Shown here piece by piece: positions 1 through 7,994 of a DNA stretch of 7,994 nt. The notes below the pieces were generated by a model. That model had not been told where the DNA came from, did not search any database, and saw only the letters and a list, made by a program, of their open reading frames with translations. The stretch comes from Clostridiales bacterium. GTDB taxonomy: Bacteria; Bacillota_A; Clostridia; Oscillospirales; Oscillospiraceae. Position numbers and translations under genes: made by a program. The stretch is taken from NCBI GenBank assembly GCA_019417795.1, contig DXUR01000101.1, forward strand, positions 1-7,994. The letters are read 5' to 3'. Position 1 is the first letter of the stretch; each line of letters starts with the position of its first letter.

Positions 1-327
1 TATGAGGACTATAAAGCTGAAATTCTGGACGAAGATGAATACAGTCAGCTAAAGGAGCATTACATAGCAGAAAAGCAGCGGCTGGAACATGAACTGCAAA
101 AGCAGCGTCAGCGCGCATTGGAACTGGAAAAGAGAATCAAAATCTGTGATGCGCAGATGGAACGGATGCGTGGGTTTCTGAATCAAAGTGAGTTTGATGA
201 AGAACTGGTGCACGAACTTATTAAGAAAATCTATGTGGGAATGGACAATTCTGTGGAGGTCGAATTTAAGTGCAGCGACCCCTATCAGGAAGTGCTTGCA
301 ATCATGTCGGAGGTTCAGAATGAATGA
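1..327 (+). CDS. Large serine recombinase, C-terminal fragment (5' end outside window)
   Basis: The frame is open from the first base and reads 108 residues before a TGA at 325-327. The start, catalytic domain and zinc ribbon lie upstream of the window. What is visible is a charged heptad-like segment (about residues 15-60, rich in Glu, Lys, Gln and Leu), as in the coiled coil of large serine recombinases. It is followed by a short tail ending in a V-E-V-E-F-K-C strand. The next gene, a complete large serine recombinase, ends in the same way (M-K-V-E-F-N-C), which supports the family assignment. In this family the coiled coil mediates synapsis of attachment sites and controls direction. The gene overlaps the next by 8 bases, so the two are probably translated together as a recombinase pair. 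It is cut only by the window edge and shows no sign of being a pseudogene. Confidence 0.85.
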   Translation, partial: YEDYKAEILDEDEYSQLKEHYIAEKQRLEHELQKQRQRALELEKRIKICDAQMERMRGFLNQSEFDEELVHELIKKIYVGMDNSVEVEFKCSDPYQEVLAIMSEVQNE

Positions 328-1915
328 TAAAATTGCAATCTATCTCCGCTTATCATTGGCAGACGGAGATTTGAAAAAGGGCAGCAAGGATGAAAGTAAC
401 AGCATTGAGAACCAACGGATGCTGCTCCACGATTACATTGGAAAGCAGGAAGATTTATTTGGCGAGATTGTAGAATATGTAGATGATGGCTATACTGGAA
501 CAAATTTTAATCGTCCGGCTTTTCAGAAAATGATCGTGGATTTGAAGCAGGGCAATATAAAAGTCATCATGGTAAAGGATTTATCCCGCCTTGGTCGTGA
601 CTATATCGGTGTTGGTGATTACATTGAGCAGATTTTTCCGTTGATGGGAGTTCGGTTTATTGCTGTGAATAATTCCTTTGACAGCATGAAACTGAACAAC
701 GGAACGCCGGGAATCGAAGTGGCAGTCAGCAATCTGGTGAATAATATGTATAGCCGGGATATTGCGAAAAAGGTTCGGGCTGCTCTGGAAACGAACTGGA
801 AGAACGGAAAAGCCACCTGCACGAATGTTCCTTTCGGATATGTGTGGAACAAGAAAGGCGGACAGCGGTGGGAGATTGACCCGGAGGCCGCAGCTAGCGT
901 GAAAAAAGTATTTGAACTGGCATTGTCTGGCCGCAATACAACGCAGATCGCCTACGGCATGAACGAATTAAATCTTCCTACGCCGGGATTGTATGCGAAA
1001 CGAAAAAATCTGCTGATGGGCAGTAATCCTATTATTGCTCCGGACAGTGAAATGCTGTGGAATGCGGCAATCGTGTGGAGAATCCTTAGACGGTATGAAT
1101 ACACGGGCGCGCTGGTTATGGGGAGAAGAAAGAAAATTGACGTAAACACTACATCTATTCGGACACTCCCGGAGGACAAGTGGATCATTGCAGAAAATGC
1201 ACATGAGGCCATCGTGACAAAAGATGAATACTATCAGGCACAGAAAGCGATCCGTAACGTAACCCCAATTCAGTATAAGGTAGGCGATGATTTCGCCTTA
1301 AAAGGGAAGATTTGCTGCGGAAACTGCAAACGGCAGCTTCGACACGAAAAGCAGTATGGAGAAATGGTTTTTTGCTGTGGCTATAAAAGGGCGGCAGGAA
1401 AGTTCTCTAAATGCTACGGCGGCTATTACAGAGAATACTCTGTAAACGCAAAAGTGGCTCGTGCGATAAAAACTGTGTTCTATGCGCTGGATGTGGTAAA
1501 TCAGGGAATGCAGGAAAAGCAGTCTATCACGGTGCGCTGCATGGATATTGAGGACTTGGAAAAGCAAGCAGAAGCCATTCGAGTGGAGCAGATTAAACTG
1601 TATGAATTGTATGCGGACGGTGTACTGCTGCGGGATGCGTACATAGAAAAGAAAAAGGTTCTTTCGGAAAAACTGGCTACATTGCAGGATAGCATACGGA
1701 TAGAAAAGGAAGAACAGGAGTGTGCCGATGAATTGGATGAAGAAATCCGCGCCCTGACAAAGCAGGCCAGCGAGAAAACGTACATCGGTGGGCTGACAAA
1801 AGAGTGTGTGGATGCTTTTGTCAGCATGGTTTATCTGTATGATGATCAGACGATGAAAGTTGAGTTTAACTGTGAAGATGTGATTCGGAGAGCATTGGAA
1901 AAGTATGGCGCATAA
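320..1915 (+). CDS. Large serine recombinase (site-specific integrase/excisionase), complete
   Basis: This 531-aa protein should cut and rejoin DNA at attachment sites through a phosphoserine link. Residues 5-150 form the resolvase-type catalytic domain: Y-L-R-L-S places the nucleophile at Ser12 with Arg10, and D-L-S-R-L-G-R-D at 87-94 is the catalytic helix motif. Residues about 165-310 are the 'recombinase' DNA-binding domain. A zinc ribbon follows, with cysteines at 332/333, 336, 352/353 and 365. Residues about 410-485 are a coiled coil, and the C-terminus ends in the same V-E-F strand as the upstream partner. The start at 320 is chosen because GGAGG (309-313) lies 6 bases upstream and the protein begins directly at the catalytic strand. 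The longer in-frame start at 188 would add 44 residues read out of frame from the neighbouring gene. No frameshift is seen, so it looks functional. The target site cannot be told from the sequence. Confidence 0.95.
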   Translation: MNDKIAIYLRLSLADGDLKKGSKDESNSIENQRMLLHDYIGKQEDLFGEIVEYVDDGYTGTNFNRPAFQKMIVDLKQGNIKVIMVKDLSRLGRDYIGVGDYIEQIFPLMGVRFIAVNNSFDSMKLNNGTPGIEVAVSNLVNNMYSRDIAKKVRAALETNWKNGKATCTNVPFGYVWNKKGGQRWEIDPEAAASVKKVFELALSGRNTTQIAYGMNELNLPTPGLYAKRKNLLMGSNPIIAPDSEMLWNAAIVWRILRRYEYTGALVMGRRKKIDVNTTSIRTLPEDKWIIAENAHEAIVTKDEYYQAQKAIRNVTPIQYKVGDDFALKGKICCGNCKRQLRHEKQYGEMVFCCGYKRAAGKFSKCYGGYYREYSVNAKVARAIKTVFYALDVVNQGMQEKQSITVRCMDIEDLEKQAEAIRVEQIKLYELYADGVLLRDAYIEKKKVLSEKLATLQDSIRIEKEEQECADELDEEIRALTKQASEKTYIGGLTKECVDAFVSMVYLYDDQTMKVEFNCEDVIRRALEKYGA

Positions 1916-1944
1916 CCGCATAGAAACAGTGAGGTGAGCAAAAA

Positions 1945-1998
1945 GAATGCCCGTCTGGTTGAGAGGATTCGCAAATCTTCTCGATCAGGCGGGTATTT
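1945..1998 (+). ncRNA. Long RNA hairpin, 25 uninterrupted base pairs, candidate structured RNA
   Basis: Positions 1945-1969 pair with 1974-1998 with no mismatch or bulge, closing a 4-base CGCA loop. Six of the 25 pairs are G-U wobbles (1945/1998, 1949/1994, 1954/1989, 1958/1985, 1960/1983, 1965/1978). On the other strand these would be A-C mismatches, so the fold is good only as + strand RNA. This argues that it is transcribed rather than being a DNA operator. It begins 29 bases after the recombinase stop and could be the 3' UTR of that mRNA or the start of a separate small RNA. An AGGTGA-type ribosome site (about 1932-1937) precedes an ATG at 1947 that would be buried in the stem. It resembles no Rfam family I can name. 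Confidence 0.6.
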
Positions 1999-2004
1999 CA
2001 TTAC

Positions 2005-2041
2005 GTGGGAATGGTTATGCCTACATTTTCTACATAAGCCA
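2005..2041 (+). ncRNA. Possible H-type pseudoknot competing with the downstream terminator
   Basis: GTGGG (2005-2009) can pair with CCTAC (2020-2024), one pair being G-U, leaving a 10-base loop. Eight of those loop bases (2012-2019) can pair with 2033-2041, leaving G2038 bulged. This is the geometry of an H-type pseudoknot: a 2-base first loop and an 8-base last loop (2025-2032). The 3' strand of the second stem is also most of the left arm of the terminator-like hairpin (2033-2044), so the two folds exclude each other, as in pseudoknot riboswitches or attenuators. The pairings are seen by eye only. Any ligand or protein partner is unknown. Confidence 0.35.
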
Positions 2042-2096
2042 CAGACAGCACCCCGGTGTGATCCGAAGTGCAGCTGTGGCTTATGCGGGATTTTTT
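2033..2096 (+). terminator. Terminator-like hairpin after the recombinase and structured RNA
   Basis: A perfect 12-bp inverted repeat (CATAAGCCACAG at 2033-2044 and CTGTGGCTTATG at 2074-2085) encloses 29 bases. Within these, GCAC (2048-2051) can pair with GTGC (2068-2071) to extend the stem across an internal loop. A run of six T follows at 2091-2096 on the + strand only. The T run starts 5 bases after the stem instead of directly, so termination may be incomplete. It would stop + strand transcripts before they run antisense through the XRE gene. The dyad is perfect in DNA as well, so a protein-binding role is possible. Confidence 0.55.
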
Positions 2097-2121
2097 GTTA
2101 TATGGTCAACGGGTTACAAAA

Positions 2122-2463
2122 TCAGATTCCCAAACCGTACAGGATTGCTTTCAGCTCTTTTACCATCCGGGTCAGAATTTCCTGTTCGATTTCATTGCAG
2201 TCCAAGAGCAGACGGTGAATTTCGGAATTTGAGGTTGAAGTCGAGTGCATCAAACTATCTACCAGCAAATCATCAGTCGATACGTCAAGAGCATTGGCAA
2301 TATCAACCAAGGCATCAAGACTTGGGCGTTTGATAGCGGATTCAATTACGCTAATATGTTTTCGTGTCATGTTAAGCTGCTCTCCCAGGGCCTCTTGCGT
2401 GATACCAGCTTGTTTTCGGGCATTTGAAATGCGCTTGCCCAAAGCTTTATAATCAGTAGCCAT
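2122..2463 (-). CDS. XRE-family helix-turn-helix transcriptional regulator
   Basis: This 113-aa protein has a Cro/cI-type HTH domain over residues about 7-66. The first HTH helix is I-T-Q-E-A-L-G-E-Q-L (21-30), the recognition helix is around T-R-K-H-I-S-V-I-E-S (33-42), and the family-typical R-P-S-L-D-A-L-V-D-I-A-N-A-L follows (47-60). Residues 80-113 form a Leu/Ile-rich helix that may serve dimerisation. The start at 2463 is supported by AAGGAGA (2471-2477, read on the - strand) 7 bases upstream. It is transcribed divergently from the ATPase-recombinase operon. The nested palindromes between them (2601-2648) are its most likely operator, so it is probably the element's own repressor and an autoregulator. 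Its targets are inferred, not shown. Confidence 0.93.
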   Translation of the reverse strand: MATDYKALGKRISNARKQAGITQEALGEQLNMTRKHISVIESAIKRPSLDALVDIANALDVSTDDLLVDSLMHSTSTSNSEIHRLLLDCNEIEQEILTRMVKELKAILYGLGI

Positions 2464-2470
2464 GTGCTTT

Positions 2471-2495
2471 TCTCCTTATGATTACCCGCATAAGG
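2471..2495 (-). promoter_or_regulatory. XRE ribosome binding site partly inside a leader hairpin
   Basis: In the XRE leader, read on the - strand, CCTTATG (2495-2489) can pair with CATAAGG (2480-2474) around an 8-base loop. The last bases of the 3' arm, AAGG, are the first part of the AAGGAGA ribosome binding site (2477-2471). The 7-bp stem could therefore mask the site and limit translation of the regulator. Alternatively, it is a small DNA dyad near the transcription start. Confidence 0.4.
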
Positions 2496-2502
2496 CAGTA
2501 CA

Positions 2503-2531
2503 ATTATCTCGCATGATGTTGGGCAGAGCAA
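2503..2531 (-). promoter_or_regulatory. Promoter for the XRE gene
   Basis: Read on the - strand, the -35 is TTGCTC (2531-2526), the spacer is 17 bases, and the -10 is GATAAT (2508-2503, one mismatch to consensus). The predicted start of transcription lies near 2495, giving a leader of about 30 bases before the ATG at 2463. Confidence 0.55.
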
Positions 2532-2547
2532 CTCTATATCAAAGGTT

Positions 2548-2592
2548 CTAAGACCGCAAAGGGACACACGGCTAACTGCTCTGTGGTCTTAG
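2548..2592. repeat. 11-bp inverted repeat in the divergent control region
   Basis: CTAAGACCGCA (2548-2558) faces TGTGGTCTTAG (2582-2592), with ten Watson-Crick pairs and one G-U if folded, around a 23-base centre. It lies just upstream of the XRE -35 and 8 bases before the nested palindromes. It is not followed by a T run, so it is not a terminator. It could be a second operator, part of a replication origin, or a recombinase site. Confidence 0.5.
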
Positions 2593-2600
2593 GATATTTT

Positions 2601-2648
2601 GCTACCCATCAGGTAGCAAAAAGCAACTCATGCTACCTGATGGGTAGC
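2601..2648. repeat. Nested palindromes: perfect 17-bp inverted repeat with palindromic arms, likely operator
   Basis: GCTACCCATCAGGTAGC (2601-2617) and its exact reverse complement GCTACCTGATGGGTAGC (2632-2648) flank a 14-base gap. Each arm is itself a dyad of GCTACC and GGTAGC around 5 bases. The left dyad extends to 10-bp arms through flanking TTTT (2597-2600) and AAAA (2618-2621). The dyad centres (2609 and 2640) are 31 bases apart, close to three helical turns, so two dimers could sit on the same DNA face and cooperate. The right dyad abuts the weak -35 region of the ATPase promoter. The simplest reading is a paired operator for the XRE protein. Iteron-like sites for the RepA-like ATPase are an alternative. 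Confidence 0.75.
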
Positions 2649-2676
2649 AGTCAAAACGCAACAAATGCTTTATAAT
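2648..2676 (+). promoter_or_regulatory. Promoter for the ATPase-recombinase operon
   Basis: A perfect TATAAT -10 lies at 2671-2676. At 17-base spacing the -35 would be CAGTCA (2648-2653), matching only three of six consensus bases and touching the right operator dyad. The good -10 with a poor -35 fits either activation or tight repression by a protein bound at 2632-2648. The predicted start of transcription is near 2683, about 30 bases before the ATG at 2714. Confidence 0.6.
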
Positions 2677-2713
2677 AGAAGTGGGAAAAGACTGCGAATA
2701 GGAAGGTAAGACG

Positions 2714-3691
2714 ATGGCAGACAAGATAGAAAAAGGAATTCTTACATTATATAGTGATGTACAGGCAACTTCTGTTCGCTGGTTGTGGTATCCATTCATT
2801 GCAGTGGGAAAGATAACATTGCTACAAGGCGATCCCGGCGATGGAAAATCAACCATGATGATGAATCTGATTGCGGAACTTTCTAAGGGTGGGAAAACAC
2901 CGGATGGAAAGCCTGTTGGGATGCCGCAAAGGATTATCTACCAGTGTTCGGAAGATGGAGTATCAGATACCATTAAACCCAGACTGGAAAGATGCGGCGC
3001 AGATTGTAGAAAAGTAGCTTTTATCAATGAAGAAACATACAGTGGCCTAACGTTGGATGATGAGCGTATCCGTCAGGCAATCATTGAATTTCGCCCACGG
3101 CTTGTAGTTATAGACCCGATTCAGGCGTATTTAGGAAGTGATTCTGACCTCCAGATTGCAGGGAGAGCCAGAAAACTGATGCAGCGTCTCGGAATGTGGG
3201 CTTCAGTATATGATTGTGCCATTGTGCTGATTGGTCATCTCAATAAGAAAGAGGGAACGAAAGGTCTGTACCGAAGTCTTGGCAGCATAGATGTGGTTGC
3301 TGCTGCGCGAAGTGTTTTGCAGGTGGAGCGTGACCAGGAAGATACAGATATTCGTATTGTCCGGCAAATAAAAAACAGTTTGGCTCCGTCTGATGGAGAA
3401 ATTCGGTTTTCTATAACAGCAGAGATGGGTTTTCAATGGTTGGAGTGCAAGAGCACATTCGTTTCATCGGAACAACCGGAAGTGCCGGAATTTGAGTCAA
3501 AAACAGAAAAGGCAGCATATCTGATAAAAAAGTTGCTTTCTGATGGCGATATGAGAGCAAGAGAAATCTATATGCGGATGAAAGATGAAGGAATCAGCCG
3601 CAGAACCGCAGAAAATACGAAGAAAGAACTCGGTATCCGAAGTTATCGGAAGATGCGACAGTGGTATTGGAGTATCAATACGGGAGAATGA
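2714..3691 (+). CDS. RepA-like / AAA_25 RecA-fold ATPase (putative replicative helicase)
   Basis: This 325-aa protein has a RecA-type ATPase core. Walker A is G-D-P-G-D-G-K-S-T at 39-47, Walker B is L-V-V-I-D at 130-134, and I-G-H-L-N-K at 173-178 is the sensor-like motif. The family (AAA_25) includes RepA, the hexameric helicase of plasmid RSF1010, so unwinding DNA during replication of the element is the likely role. Residues about 262-325 (from K-T-E-K-A-A-Y-L to the end) look like a winged helix for DNA binding. Ribosome site GGAAGG (2701-2706) is 7 bases before the ATG. It is the first gene of an operon, with the recombinase starting 10 bases after its stop. No primase or initiator is visible nearby, so a recombination-mediator ATPase is also possible. 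Confidence 0.88.
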   Translation: MADKIEKGILTLYSDVQATSVRWLWYPFIAVGKITLLQGDPGDGKSTMMMNLIAELSKGGKTPDGKPVGMPQRIIYQCSEDGVSDTIKPRLERCGADCRKVAFINEETYSGLTLDDERIRQAIIEFRPRLVVIDPIQAYLGSDSDLQIAGRARKLMQRLGMWASVYDCAIVLIGHLNKKEGTKGLYRSLGSIDVVAAARSVLQVERDQEDTDIRIVRQIKNSLAPSDGEIRFSITAEMGFQWLECKSTFVSSEQPEVPEFESKTEKAAYLIKKLLSDGDMRAREIYMRMKDEGISRRTAENTKKELGIRSYRKMRQWYWSINTGE

Positions 3692-3701
3692 GGAAAAGTA
3701 C

Positions 3702-5540
3702 ATGATTATCGGTGAAGTAGAAGCAGTAGACCGTAAGCAAAAAATCAGAGACCGCTATAAGGGTGTAGATATATCGGAATTGGAGGTCATTCCCGCCAAA
3801 ATCATAGAGGATCTGGAAACGAGTTCTGTGATTCGGCGTGTGGCAGCATATATCCGTGTTTCCACCGATAATGATGAACAGACTTCTTCGTATGAACTTC
3901 AGAAAAACTATTATACGGATTATATTCAGGCACAGCCGGGATGGGTGTTTGTCGGAATCTATGCGGATGAGGGTATCAGCGGCACATCTCTGGAACATCG
4001 GAAAGGGATGCAGCAGTTGATTGAGGACTGCAAGGCAGGCAAGATTGACCTCGTTCTTACAAAATCCATTGCCCGTTTCGCTCGAAATATCGTTGACTGC
4101 CTTTCTGTGATTGAACTTCTGAAAAATCTCAATCCGCCTGTGGGTGTGAAATTTGAAGCGGATAATATCTATACGTTGGACAGCAATGGACGCATGATTT
4201 TGACGATTCTGGCATCTGTGGCAGAGGAAGAATCGCATTCCAAATCTATCATTATGAACTGGTCGATTGATCGGCGGTTCAGCCGTGGCCTGTTCCTGAC
4301 CCCTGCATTGCTTGGATACGATAAAGACGAGGAAGGAAACCTTGTAATTAACCCGGAGGAAGCGCAGACGGTAAAGGTGATTTACTACCTGTACCTGAAT
4401 GGATATTCGCTTACGGAGATCGCAACCCTTTTGATGGAGTATAGCCGTAAGACGAAGTTGGGGCGTGTGGAGTGGAATCCCGGTACACTTGCAGGTGTTT
4501 TGGCAAATGAGCGTCATTGTGGTGATGTACTGGCGAGAAAGACCTTTACACCGAACTTTTTGACGCATAAATCAAAGAAAAACAATAATGACCGGACACA
4601 GTACAGGCAGAAGAATCACCATGAAGCCATTGTTTCCAGAGAAGTTTTCAATGCAGCCAATCATCTGCGGGCATCCCGCAATTATTCAAAGAAAAACAGA
4701 CCCTTGCCCGTGTTAAGCGTGGTTGAAGATGGGATTTTGCGAGGATATGTGCCTTTTGATAAGGATTGGACAGGTTTTTCGGCAGAAGAATACAGGGAAG
4801 CCTCTGAAAGCGTGATGAAAGAACCGAATGCCACTGCTGCTGCGGATGTGAAAAAACGTCTTGATCTGACGGGCTATGAAGTAGTCAGGGCGCAGTATTT
4901 TTCTACCATGCAGAATCCGGCCATGACGATTTCTAATGGACGATTGCGATTTAACACAGCTTGCTTAAAAAAGTTTGAAAATGTGGAATATGTGGAGCTG
5001 CTGTTAAATTCTGTTGAACGCTGCATTGCCATTCGCCCCTGTAACAAGAATAATCCAAACGCGATCCGTTGGGGCAGACTGAAAGAGGGACGTTGGTGTG
5101 CAAGCACTTTGGGCTGTCGTGGACTTGCAAAGACTTTATTTGACATCATGGAATGGGATGAGGATTTGCGTTATCGGTTTCGGGGTCAGTTTTTGGAACA
5201 GGGCGATAACAAAATGATGCTGTTCGCATTTGATGAGCCTGAAATGATTAAGGTGGAAGAAATTGTTCTGCCTCCAAAGGAAAACACCGAAGAAGATGAG
5301 GGCGAAACGGTCAAAAAGAAGATTTACATTTTCCCACCAGAGTGGGCTGGAACATTTGGACAGCCGATTACAAGTATTGCGCAGGTGGGTATCTTACGGC
5401 AGGAGCATTATGCCGGAAACTGGGATGTATTTCGTCCTGCGTCGGAGATAGAGGAAATGAACACATTTACGGCAGAAAGTCTAAATAAGTTGCTCCATGA
5501 AGCGGAGAAGATAATGGAAGGATGGACTGATTATAGATGA
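3702..5540 (+). CDS. Large serine recombinase with atypical C-terminal domain replacing the zinc ribbon
   Basis: This 612-aa protein starts with a conserved-looking extension (about 1-45, including G-V-D-I-S-E-L-E-V-I-P-A-K). The resolvase catalytic domain follows (46-185): Y-I-R-V-S-T-D gives Arg52 and nucleophile Ser54, and T-K-S-I-A-R-F-A-R-N at 120-129 is the catalytic helix. The recombinase DNA-binding domain covers about 200-325. No CxxC zinc ribbon follows. Residues 390-517 instead form a domain containing F-N-T-A-C, C-N, I-R-W, M-E-W-D and R-Y-R-F-R-G. After an acidic linker comes a short F-P-P-E-W-A-G-T-F-G motif (544-553). Both parts recur in the next gene. The start at 3702 has AGGA (3691-3694) upstream. 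The in-frame start at 3585 would overlap the ATPase gene by more than 100 bases and is rejected. The 3' end overlaps the next gene by ATGA. Confidence 0.94.
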   Translation: MIIGEVEAVDRKQKIRDRYKGVDISELEVIPAKIIEDLETSSVIRRVAAYIRVSTDNDEQTSSYELQKNYYTDYIQAQPGWVFVGIYADEGISGTSLEHRKGMQQLIEDCKAGKIDLVLTKSIARFARNIVDCLSVIELLKNLNPPVGVKFEADNIYTLDSNGRMILTILASVAEEESHSKSIIMNWSIDRRFSRGLFLTPALLGYDKDEEGNLVINPEEAQTVKVIYYLYLNGYSLTEIATLLMEYSRKTKLGRVEWNPGTLAGVLANERHCGDVLARKTFTPNFLTHKSKKNNNDRTQYRQKNHHEAIVSREVFNAANHLRASRNYSKKNRPLPVLSVVEDGILRGYVPFDKDWTGFSAEEYREASESVMKEPNATAAADVKKRLDLTGYEVVRAQYFSTMQNPAMTISNGRLRFNTACLKKFENVEYVELLLNSVERCIAIRPCNKNNPNAIRWGRLKEGRWCASTLGCRGLAKTLFDIMEWDEDLRYRFRGQFLEQGDNKMMLFAFDEPEMIKVEEIVLPPKENTEEDEGETVKKKIYIFPPEWAGTFGQPITSIAQVGILRQEHYAGNWDVFRPASEIEEMNTFTAESLNKLLHEAEKIMEGWTDYR

Positions 5541-6241
5541 ATGAAGAAAACACAACAATCATGCCGCCAGAGAAGGAGATTGTGCAGGATGATAGAGACG
5601 CACGGGCGGAAGAACTGGAAAGTGCCTTTTCGTATGATGGCTACCAGGTCGTGCGAAAGGAACTGTTCGCCCATCTGCGTGACCCGGCAATCGTGATTCG
5701 TAAAGATAGTATCACATTCAATACAGCCTGTATCACAGGGCTGGAGGATGTGGTCTACGTTCATGTCATGTTCAACAATGATTTGAAGCGTATCGTTGTT
5801 CGTGGGTGTAATGAAAATGACAAGGACGCTCTGCGTTGGTGCGTGGCAAAACCGGATAAGCGCAAAAGCCGGAAGATGTCCTGCAAGCCATTTGCGACTT
5901 TAGTTTATCAAGAAATGGGATGGGACAGCGAGTGCCGATATAAAATGTTAGGGTATAGGATTACATTTGAGGGTGAAACTTTGTATGTTTTTGATCTTCT
6001 TGTGCCAGAAATTTTCCATGAGGGACAGAGAAGAAAAAAGAATGCAGCAGATTCGCAGGATAATACTGCAGCAACAAAATCTGTGGATAGCCGCAAAGGA
6101 TTCTACCCAGATGATATTGTGGGAACTTTTGGTGTGCCTGTGGAAGAACACCGAAAAGAATCTGAAGTCCAGCAAATGGATGGGTATGTGTCAATGGGGA
6201 TTCTGACAGGAAAGATCGTTCCTGAAGCTGGAAAGGACTAA
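5537..6241 (+). CDS. Recombinase-companion protein: free-standing copy of the recombinase C-terminal domain
   Basis: This 234-aa protein has no recognised catalytic motif. Residues 35-160 align without large gaps to residues 390-515 of the upstream recombinase, at roughly 30% identity by eye. Shared points include G-Y-x-V-V-R at the start, F-N-T-A-C (61-65), V-x-Y-V, I-x-x-R-x-C-N (86-92), A-x-R-W (98-101), M-x-W-D (127-130), R-Y (134-135) and P-E. Near the C-terminus Y-P-D-D-I-V-G-T-F-G-V-P (190-201) matches the recombinase's P-P-E-W-A-G-T-F-G-Q-P, so the homology covers both modules. A basic linker lies between. The gene overlaps the recombinase stop by 4 bases (ATGA), so translation is coupled and the proteins are probably made together. 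A role as an accessory subunit or directionality factor is inference. The family is unknown to me. Confidence 0.88.
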   Translation: MNEENTTIMPPEKEIVQDDRDARAEELESAFSYDGYQVVRKELFAHLRDPAIVIRKDSITFNTACITGLEDVVYVHVMFNNDLKRIVVRGCNENDKDALRWCVAKPDKRKSRKMSCKPFATLVYQEMGWDSECRYKMLGYRITFEGETLYVFDLLVPEIFHEGQRRKKNAADSQDNTAATKSVDSRKGFYPDDIVGTFGVPVEEHRKESEVQQMDGYVSMGILTGKIVPEAGKD

Positions 6242-6291
6242 TTGCCGGTTGCATAAGGGAATAGTCTGTCCATTTGCGGGAGGTGAGCAGT

Positions 6292-6729
6292 ATGCAGAAA
6301 ACAGAACAGAAAACGGAGCAACAGGCAGGACTTGGCATGAGTTTCTGCGAGGAAGAGGGACGAATCACGGTCTTCAGAAAAACGCTGGAAGCGTTAGAAT
6401 GGCCGTCACACTATCGGTTTCTGTATAATCGCAAAATGAAACAGATAGCTGTACAGGCGTGTGGAGCAGAAGAATCAGGAGCGCATCGTGTGGGAAAGCC
6501 GGATGAATCCAATAGCGGTGAAATCAAGTGTATGGCATTGGTTCGCATGATTTACGGGGATTCTGGGTGGGACAAGAAAATGTCCTATCGGCTGCACGGA
6601 AGAGCTTTTCCACAGCAGCGGCTTGTTTCGTTTAAGATAACGGATGCGATGCAGATAGAAAACGGGAGAGTGCTGACTGAAAATGTGAATCTTACATCAG
6701 TTGGTTCCAGAATAATTAGTTGTCCATGA
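6292..6729 (+). CDS. Second recombinase-companion protein, shorter and divergent copy
   Basis: This 145-aa protein has no named family that I recognise. It appears to be a third, divergent copy of the domain in the two preceding genes. G-R-I-T-V-F (23-28) corresponds to the strand before F-N-T-A-C, K-Q-I-A-V-Q-A-C (50-57) to C-I-A-I-R-P-C, and G-W-D-K-K-M-S-Y-R-L-H-G (92-103) to E-W-D-E-D-L-R-Y-R-F-R-G. It lacks the F-N-T-A-C cysteine region proper and the C-terminal G-T-F-G motif. The start at 6292 is set by GGGAGGTGA (6278-6286) 5 bases upstream. A TTG at 6274 would precede this ribosome site and is rejected. It follows the previous gene by 50 bases and is the last gene of the operon, with its stop inside an inverted repeat. 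Confidence 0.8.
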   Translation: MQKTEQKTEQQAGLGMSFCEEEGRITVFRKTLEALEWPSHYRFLYNRKMKQIAVQACGAEESGAHRVGKPDESNSGEIKCMALVRMIYGDSGWDKKMSYRLHGRAFPQQRLVSFKITDAMQIENGRVLTENVNLTSVGSRIISCP

Positions 6730-6766
6730 TATAACAGTGGCGAAGAATGCAATAATATGGACAACT
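6718..6766. repeat. 10-bp perfect inverted repeat at the operon end
   Basis: AGTTGTCCAT (6718-6727) faces ATGGACAACT (6757-6766) around 29 bases and overlaps the stop codon of the last operon gene. Neither strand has a T run after the arms, so it is not a standard terminator. It lies about 30 bases before the -35 of the next promoter. It may slow transcription or protect the 3' end of the mRNA, or mark a DNA boundary. Confidence 0.45.
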
Positions 6767-6795
6767 CCACGCAAGAAAAGTTTACAGTTAGTCGC

Positions 6796-6824
6796 TTGAT
6801 GTGGGCGGTGAATTATGGTAAGAT
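6796..6824 (+). promoter_or_regulatory. Promoter for the PD-(D/E)XK gene
   Basis: The -35 is TTGATG (6796-6801), the spacer is 17 bases, and the -10 is TAAGAT (6819-6824) with an upstream TG (6816-6817) giving an extended -10. The predicted start is near 6831, with a leader of about 53 bases to the ATG at 6884. It makes the next gene a separate transcription unit. Confidence 0.6.
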
Positions 6825-6883
6825 GGAAACACAATAGGAGAGTTTACGCTCTTGTTGAATCTACTGCGAGGAAGTGAATTCCG

Positions 6884-7862
6884 ATGGAAAATCAGCTTGC
6901 CCACACGATAGATCAGACAGAGTATGATTCGAGATATGACAGAACAGCGAAAAAGCTGTTGGCAAACAAACAGATTCTGGCACAGATCATGAAAGGCTGT
7001 GTGAATGAATACAGCGATTGTACCGTAGATGATATTGTTGAGAAAATACATCGAGGGAACCCCGGAGGTTGGTTCTGTTGGTGTTCATGTCGATGATACG
7101 AACAGACCCAAAAAGTCAACAGATGTAATCAAGGGCAGTAACAACGAGGATTCTACGCTGACCGAGGGAACATTGTTCTACGATGTTCGCTTTGACGCAA
7201 TCGCACCGAAATCTGCGGACAGCACAGAACAGGAAGAAGTCATTCGTCTGATTATCAATGTGGAAGCACAGACAAAATTCAAGCCGGGATACCCATTGAC
7301 AAAACGGGCAATCTATTGTTGCAGCAGAATGATTTCTGCACAGCACGGCCCGATTTTTACAAAATCCGAATACGGGAAAATTCGTAAGGTCTATTCGATT
7401 TGGATTTGTACCCAGCCGTCAGATGGTTTTGAAAACACGCTTACCCGGTACTCCATTAAACCGGAACAGTTGATTGGAGAAGCGCAGGAAGAAACCGAAA
7501 ACTACGATTTGATGAGCGTTGTAATGATTTGCTTAGGCAAGCCAGGGACGGAGAATCACAAAGGAATCCTGAAATTCATGGAAGTGCTGTTATCTTCCAC
7601 AAGGTCGGGTTCGGAGAAGAAGAAGATTCTGGAAGAAGAGTTTGGCGTTGCAATGAGCGAAGAACTGGAAAGAGAGGTGCTTGAAGTGTGCAATCTTAGT
7701 CAGGGCGTAAGGCAGGAGGGTATCGAAATTGGTGAAATTCGGATGCTGGTTCAGCTTGTTCGAGAAGGCGATTTGTCGCTGGAACGTGCTGCAACGAAAG
7801 CTAAAATGACTGTTGAACAGTTTAAGAAAGTGATGGAAGATACCCCATTGCAGGCGGTATAA
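6884..7862 (+). pseudogene. PD-(D/E)XK nuclease-family transposase (Rpn-like), broken by a single-base frameshift
   Basis: The gene starts at 6884 after GAGGAAGTGA (6868-6877). It reads 54 codons, then shifts frame in a run of four A (7043-7046). The first frame ends at a TGA (7094-7096), while the rest continues in the next frame to TAA at 7860-7862. Removing one A restores a 325-aa protein with K-Y-I-E-G-T-P-E-V-G across the join. The corrected protein matches the PD-(D/E)XK_2 / Rpn-like family: Asp104 in R-F-D-A, then Glu127 and Gln129 in I-N-V-E-A-Q form the nuclease motif. The C-terminal region (G-D-L-S-L-E-R-A-A-T-K) is the usual helical tail. The family promotes recombination or acts as a transposase. 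Either the gene is recently inactivated, the base is a sequencing error, or it is expressed by +1 frameshifting. The downstream part has no good ribosome site of its own. Confidence 0.85.
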
Positions 7863-7887
7863 AACAAAATAGCATAAAATGACAGAT

Positions 7888-7950
7888 AGCCCCACAAGGC
7901 TCTGATGATTCAAAAAATTGTCAGAAAAACCTTGTGGGGCTTATTTTTTT
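7888..7950 (+). terminator. Strong intrinsic terminator after the PD-(D/E)XK gene
   Basis: AGCCCCACAAGG (7888-7899) pairs perfectly with CCTTGTGGGGCT (7930-7941). Inside it a second 9-bp stem forms (7902-7910 with 7916-7924, two G-U pairs) around a 5-base loop. A run of seven T follows at 7944-7950 and another six T at 7954-7959. It closes the transcription unit that starts near 6831. Confidence 0.88.
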
Positions 7951-7994
7951 GCCTTTTTTGAGAAATTTGTTGCCCCTATCTTGACATCAGGGGG
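7951..7994. other. Window tail: short inverted repeat and -35-like hexamer
   Basis: CCCCT (7973-7977) faces AGGGG (7989-7993), and between them lies TTGACA (7981-7986), a perfect -35 hexamer. The -10 would fall outside the window, so a promoter cannot be confirmed. No gene is seen in these bases. Confidence 0.2.

Follow-up and report, generated by a model that had tools for sequence, protein, structure and literature searches.

A large serine recombinase whose C-terminal domain recurs in two solo genes of the same operon in Clostridia and their phages

We analysed a 7,994-nucleotide stretch of DNA from a Clostridiales bacterium (GenBank assembly GCA_019417795.1, contig DXUR01000101.1, positions 1 to 7,994 of the forward strand), referred to as the window. 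An operon in it carries a large serine recombinase (LSR), named here REC-D, followed by two smaller genes, c1 and c2. The C-terminal part of REC-D contains a domain, D, that is found again as a solo copy in each of the two companion genes, and the three genes occur together in a large group of relatives. Because one fused and two solo copies of D lie side by side and D replaces the zinc ribbon and coiled coil of the recombinase, we read c1 and c2 as subunits that would assemble on REC-D. We tentatively propose, with confidence a little short of even, that REC-D, c1 and c2 make up a single heteromeric system of site-specific recombination.

One domain in three adjacent genes

The initial annotation, made from the window alone, had noticed that the C-terminal domain of REC-D recurs in the next gene and, more faintly, in the gene after that. 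Single-sequence comparisons bore this out, pairing residues 371-603 of REC-D with residues 15-233 of c1 (E 2e-27, 24% identity, with the G-T-F-G motif aligned), and c2 with residues 413-500 of REC-D (E 7e-7) and residues 59-139 of c1 (E 5e-12). The repeat borders first given were correct within a few residues, and the ATGA overlap of REC-D and c1 is present at 5537-5540. Profile-profile comparison related all three segments: c1 to REC-D at E 2.3e-44 over 188 columns, c2 to c1 at E 2.5e-18 and c2 to REC-D at E 5.4e-18, the last match being confined to the C-terminal region of the recombinase. The profile alignments, each with the window sequence added, comprised 92 of 92 representatives for c1, 96 of 96 for the recombinase and 62 of 102 for c2. 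Judged by the extent of the matches, c1 is a copy of the whole C-terminal half of REC-D including the G-T-F-G tail and c2 is D alone, with its start most likely at 6292 (GGAGGTGAGCAGT-ATG), 50 nt downstream of the c1 stop codon. In AlphaFold2 models of c1 and REC-D, D is predicted with confidence (block pLDDT mostly >90) and with the same order of strands and helices, in agreement with a shared fold. D is net basic in all three proteins (mean +3.8 in REC-D, +6.0 in c1 and +4.2 in c2 over 89 trios).

REC-D is predicted to have an intact active site of the serine-recombinase type. It matches both the catalytic and the Recombinase domain (Table 1), its model matches LSR-DNA complexes in fold, and the YIRVS and RFxRN catalytic motifs are present in 120 of 124 REC-D relatives; two of the four exceptions are cut at the N terminus, one has a far start and one an altered arginine motif. 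No zinc ribbon was detected in REC-D, since PF13408 and DUF4368 gave no match at E up to 1 and CxxC occurs nowhere in the protein. DUF4368 is named, with three main LSR domains, in the available part of a systematic LSR survey (PMC10083194). The solo copies had been suggested to replace coiled-coil or zinc-ribbon function; the replacement is found in REC-D itself, where, on sequence evidence, D occupies the place of both. A well-studied LSR touches the outer part of every 25-bp half-site with its zinc ribbon and governs synapsis and direction through its coiled coil, according to the available part of its description (PMC3783163). Because D sits where that zinc ribbon contacts the outer attachment (att) half-site, D may read the outer half-site in REC-D (PMC3783163).

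By eye, D looks like two AbrB-like hairpin units in the order of its strands and helices, and among solved structures MraZ ranked first for the c1 model, with a weak Z score. No significant profile match joined D to 9 MraZ and 11 AbrB sequences (hhalign E 0.15-0.65), and none of 63 c2 and 88 c1 members matched PF02381 or PF04014. Searching the sequences of solved structures gave no match with the c1 profile and a best value of 0.036 (CusF) with the c2 profile. Sliding clamps, suggested as fold relatives by a Foldseek search of the c1 model against the PDB, were not used (best E 0.015, template modelling (TM) score about 0.1). The same model gave three matches at E up to 1e-3 in BFVD, and the best target cover was reached by an uncharacterised 114-aa protein from Bacillus phage Mgbh1 (TM score by target 0.60). 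REC-D, c1 and c2 had no match at E up to 0.01 among the PADLOC anti-phage defence models, and no description of D or the trio was found in the titles and abstract openings of papers listed in searches of the open-licence PubMed Central (PMC) literature.

Conservation, setting and history of the trio

Recombinase searches, together with five annotated records found with c1, yielded 195 loci, some sharing a contig; 171 hold a recombinase with D, represented by 124 after clustering at 90% identity. A D gene comes directly after REC-D in 103 of the 104 relatives with at least 2.5 kb downstream, and 92 have two or more (two solo D genes in 86, three in 6, one in 11, none in 1); the 20 shorter loci have two (11 loci), one (5) or none (4). 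By place and length, the single solo gene of the 11 one-gene loci is c1, and a more sensitive scan of 13 loci, two of them outside these 11, detected no second solo D gene. When the first possible codon is taken as the start, the frames of REC-D and the next D gene overlap in 105 of 119 cases and are separated by 30 nt or less in 12 more. Three D-bearing frames follow REC-D in six representatives (L166, L173, L187, L189, L194 and L076), one of the frames in L076 being only 68 aa and possibly a c1 fragment. The iterated c2 profile admitted proteins of up to 220 aa and therefore some c1, which mixed the score labels in some loci; c1 and c2 were assigned by gene order, and the profile comparisons and the tree of D described below are independent of that profile.

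A survey that started from c1 gave a concordant result. Viral contigs contributed 80 loci to it, 72 of them distinct and many sharing a contig with the first set. Where enough sequence was available, REC-D adjoined c1 on the upstream side in 55 of 63 loci, and c2 lay downstream of c1 in 64 of 64. Among the eight exceptions without REC-D adjoining c1, the six opened (all except L272 and L288) showed REC-D about 0.65-0.95 kb before c1 in five and broken in one, and an extra gene between REC-D and c1 was clearly resolved in three of those five (L285, L287 and L294). The idea that six c1-c2 pairs are without a recombinase was dropped; REC-D lies further upstream in the five that were opened (all but L288). 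The expected conservation of the companions beside this recombinase thus holds from both sides. The initial annotation had named unrelated profiles, differing folds and companions that are not conserved as grounds for refutation; the outcome was the opposite for the profiles, for the folds of REC-D and c1 and for conservation. What stood of it is a single fold, present once fused and twice solo in one conserved operon.

The operon occurs in different settings. Among the 124 representatives, the trio lies behind an AAA ATPase gene in 27, as in the window, before two ParB-like genes in 88, in both contexts in none and in neither in 9, six of which have less than 1.4 kb after the trio. In a third setting REC-D is followed by an extra gene of 241-247 aa, c1, c2 and then a protein of 701-813 aa with a Fic domain (L285, L287 and L294, the three proteins tested for the domain; probably also L296). 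The second ParB-like gene after c2 in phage-type loci is DUF6551, PHROG 1033 (L031, 10039-11902, and relatives).

Clostridia predominate among the hosts named in the genome scan (best 80 of 544 matches), joined by Negativicutes, Erysipelotrichaceae and a single record labelled Deltaproteobacteria bacterium Smac51. The matches to c1 also include one plasmid record and 19 phage records, and the four phage records opened all belong to Ca. Heliusvirales, a proposed order of gut phages, and carry the trio. For Ca. Heliusviridae, the available part of the description lists nine shared genes, seven named by function, none as an integrase or recombinase, and two of unknown function (PMC9226167). At least 3,881 c1 relatives were present in the protein collection, and the closest named one among the 120 of 3,881 matches listed is from a metagenome-assembled genome of Faecalibacterium prausnitzii. 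In some database proteins, parts of c1 or c2 at 88-100% identity are joined to other sequence, namely capsule genes, REC-D or ATPase, and the breakpoints recur at the same codons (for example c1 1-5, c2 43-46 and 71-73); these may be assembly artefacts or real rearrangements.

A tree of D was built from 45 of the 89 complete trios plus the window, with a bootstrap not quite settled. The copies from REC-D, c1 and c2 each formed one side of a branch (support 87/68, 100/94 and 100/100), and 2 class changes were needed compared with 65.8 in shuffles. Because the three classes separate, the triplication of D is older than the spread of the operon. Distances in 71 ParB-type trios correlated at 0.58-0.67 among the D copies of REC-D, c1 and c2, at 0.36-0.54 between the D set and the first ParB-like protein and at 0.58-0.64 with the second; with the nearby integrase, identified by best hit in 31 loci, the values were 0.34-0.43. 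These correlations hint at co-evolution of the D copies. Physical linkage in mobile elements would suffice to explain co-occurrence, so that c1 and c2 might travel along by inheritance as a block and have no part in recombination. We regard this as highly improbable, given that the gene order is kept across the AAA, ParB and Fic-type contexts and beside different LSR arrays, and that the three D copies are separate lineages.

A Cro/C1-type gene is found within 1.7 kb upstream of the trio in 95 of 100 loci. In the window, the TGCTACC-N5-GGTAGCA dyads between the repressor and the operon are probable operators; the same dyads occur at the same place and spacing in L004, and L041 has at that place and spacing an altered version (TGCCACC) that is still symmetric, as operators would be. 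A role of c1 and c2 in transcription, as regulators derived from the recombinase tail that bind DNA to control the operon or element, seems to us quite unlikely.

Table 1. Features of the window
Feature	Position	Strand	Evidence
rec1, C-terminal end of first LSR, truncated by the window start	1..327	+	Open reading frame; DUF4368 matched weakly, below cut-off (E 6.6e-4)
rec2, LSR of the ordinary kind (Resolvase and Recombinase domains), CGNC in zinc-ribbon region, 5' end overlapping the 3' end of rec1	320..1915	+	
Cro/C1-type repressor, divergent from the operon	2122..2463	-	HTH_3 E 4.5e-14
Two TGCTACC-N5-GGTAGCA dyads, 31 bp apart, probable repressor operators	2600..2649	none	
AAA_25 ATPase, operon gene 1	2714..3691	+	PF13481 E 5.2e-22
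rec3 (REC-D), LSR with D as C-terminal part	3702..5540	+	Resolvase catalytic domain PF00239 E 3.7e-28; Recombinase domain PF07508 E 2.1e-20; structure model
D domain inside rec3, about residues 400-525	4899..5276	+	Alignments, profile comparisons, model
c1, solo copy of the entire REC-D C-terminal half (D and G-T-F-G tail)	5537..6241	+	Alignments, profile comparison, model
c2, solo D without tail	6292..6729	+	Alignments, profile comparisons
47-bp palindrome across the c2 stop codon	6719..6765	none	Arms resemble the outer part of att half-sites
Attachment half-site GTTGCCCCTATCTTGACATCAGGG and core dinucleotide GG, probable right element end	7969..7994	+	

Attachment sites and neighbouring recombinases

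An insertion of about 88.7 kb in genome G011 (C15:142116-230841), with the trio at one end, splits a sugar-transferase gene whose first (230841-231161) and last (141943-142116) parts lie on the minus strand of one contig. A complete sugar-transferase gene is also found about 0.3 kb inside the far junction (229959-230525) and may be cargo or reflect a more complicated history. The split parts are on two contigs in G014, and in G012 only the last part was found. The G014 junctions consist of two arms of 24 nt around a GG core, which was chosen over GA because the arms then become equal and G012 and the window fit. Twelve of 24 arm positions are symmetric, including 9 of the outer 11, a symmetry reached by random pairs 6 times in 20,000.

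The window closes, at GG, with another occurrence of the right half-site known from G014, G012 and L120; of 23 positions compared with a pattern built from those other sites, 1 is mismatched (0 such matches expected). The right end of the window is thus most likely the element end, and the contig may stop there where circular and integrated forms diverge; the coincidence of half-site, core and contig end suggests a break at an active attachment site. Some 27 nt before the half-site, an inverted repeat followed by a T run (7888-7941) resembles a terminator. Between c2 and this end lies a gene for a PD-(D/E)XK-type nuclease (6884-7862; weak PF12784 match, below cut-off), seemingly split across two frames (6884-7096 and 7029-7862) and probably element cargo.

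If REC-D were the integrase of the element and c1 and c2 its accessory factors, its place near an element end would be accounted for: c2 lies 107 nt from the GTTG half-site in G014 and 191 nt in G012, and in G011 the junction is about 1.5 kb away. Several comparisons make this unlikely. The window REC-D is 88% identical to that of L036 and 84% to that of L041, yet the neighbouring LSR arrays are of different kinds and no GTTG half-site was found after c2 in 3.1 kb of L036 or 6.3 kb of L041. The nearest counterpart of the window's rec2 is an LSR in the array of G014 (41%), which has the same site type. These comparisons suggest that the array, not REC-D, uses the site, and in the few comparable cases of this small site sample the type of attachment site follows the neighbouring LSR array; G011, with a related array yet a different site, is a caveat. 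Another LSR lies upstream in 15 of the 20 AAA-type loci with at least 5 kb, with an array further up in two of the other five, and all four Heliusvirales records, which are complete, carry exactly three LSRs (REC-D and two others) and no tyrosine integrase. Both of these others have zinc ribbons in L031, the record tested. In G011, three more LSRs form an array at a distance of 10-15 kb from REC-D. ParB-type loci differ: with at least 6 kb after the trio, another LSR is downstream in 17 of 54 and on either side in 20, so that ordinary LSRs as usual companions of the trio hold for AAA-type loci and not for ParB-type ones.

The two arms of the palindrome at the c2 stop codon differ in their likeness to att half-sites, the right one scoring 14.3 and the left one 8.0, which is chance level. 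L052 has a similar 49-bp palindrome 17 nt after c2, with arms that likewise resemble att half-sites, and the spacing of both differs from that of the 50-bp att site. A palindrome after c2 is not general (the window and 3 of 41 relatives, differing in sequence among the three, vs 10 of 410 shuffles); a looser GTTG pattern was found 19 times after c2 against 25 expected; and the seven stretches with the GTTG pattern in viral contigs include one with the trio in the available stretch. Neither the sugar-transferase gene (3 of 19 AAA-type loci) nor comEC (2 of 54 ParB-type loci with enough upstream sequence) proved to be a common target. Fragments judged comEC-like by eye lie 3.0 kb upstream of the trio in L099 (Ruminococcus torques) and 5.8 kb upstream in L031, suggesting prophage integration in comEC.

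A proposed recombination system and its relation to known ones

In the heteromeric system that we favour, REC-D would supply the chemistry and D would stand in for the zinc ribbon and coiled coil, reading outer half-sites and pairing subunits. c1 and c2 would join REC-D as D-only subunits, probably through D-D contacts and binding of adjacent DNA, and would decide site pairing or direction. The adjacent repressor would keep the operon off until the element is induced. Ordinary LSRs alongside, as in the window, most likely integrate, and the trio would act after induction, in excision or in resolution or maintenance of the circle. A possible, more doubtful form of the proposal is an LSR in which site reading and synapsis are split over three or four polypeptides sharing D: REC-D would cut; c1 and c2, joined in some elements by a third solo copy, would fill further half-sites or hold the synapse; and the D subunits present would set the partner site or direction.

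Several observations weigh against the heteromeric system. A recombination site of REC-D was not identified; 12 of 104 loci yielded no c2; and no other LSR is present in the available stretch of 34 of 54 ParB-type loci, which favours REC-D as the integrase there. The distance correlations are noisy, as the catalytic part of REC-D correlates with its own D at only 0.49 and the second ParB-like protein with the D of c2 at 0.64, and the integrase comparison is limited to the 31 best-hit loci. Of the upstream regions, only 2 of 26 in AAA-type loci and 2 of 66 in ParB-type loci showed operator-like repeats.

c1, c2 or both could also be recombination directionality factors, which would bind either REC-D or the LSRs next to it and turn integration into excision, a role that we find rather unlikely. 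D lies at the place through which known factors act, as far as the available part of the source describes it (PMC3783163), and c1 and c2 carry D alone. The D genes closely follow REC-D and the operon follows a repressor, as this role would have it, whereas two distinct conserved solo proteins exceed the need of one switch, and att type in the comparable cases tracks arrays with CxxC in the zinc-ribbon region, not D. To our knowledge, directionality factors are not described as copies of an integrase tail.

The heteromeric system would differ from the LSRs and serine integrases of the A118, phiC31, Bxb1 and TndX type in that REC-D lacks a zinc-ribbon match, carries D as its C-terminal part and is followed by two solo D genes. 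CcrA, CcrB and CcrC of staphylococcal cassette chromosome (SCC) elements are the best NCBIfam matches of the N-terminal half of REC-D, the only half matched, with scores far below the curated cut-offs (CcrB 100.4 of 900, CcrC 87.9 of 900 and CcrA 67.8 of 700 bits). SCC elements are alike in having several LSRs near an ATPase gene, in their case a helicase gene. Streptococcal integrative and conjugative elements with triplets of serine integrases resemble the present elements in several LSRs per element, gene-disrupting integration, very short direct repeats and, sometimes, genes between integrases and target; their three LSRs are clustered, the available part of the account mentions no D genes, and REC-D stands apart from the array (PMC4701971).

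LSRs serve as tools of genome engineering, and the zinc ribbon and coiled coil are credited with their choice of partner site and direction. The present group is large and natural, has no recognisable zinc ribbon and bears one new domain in three copies, encoded by genes that can be deleted individually. With the trio, the split of cutting from site reading and from direction would become directly testable. Judging by its c1 relatives and its presence in Heliusvirales gut phages, the group is a common one. If true, the split LSR would represent a multi-subunit class of LSRs that is widespread in gut Clostridia and their phages.

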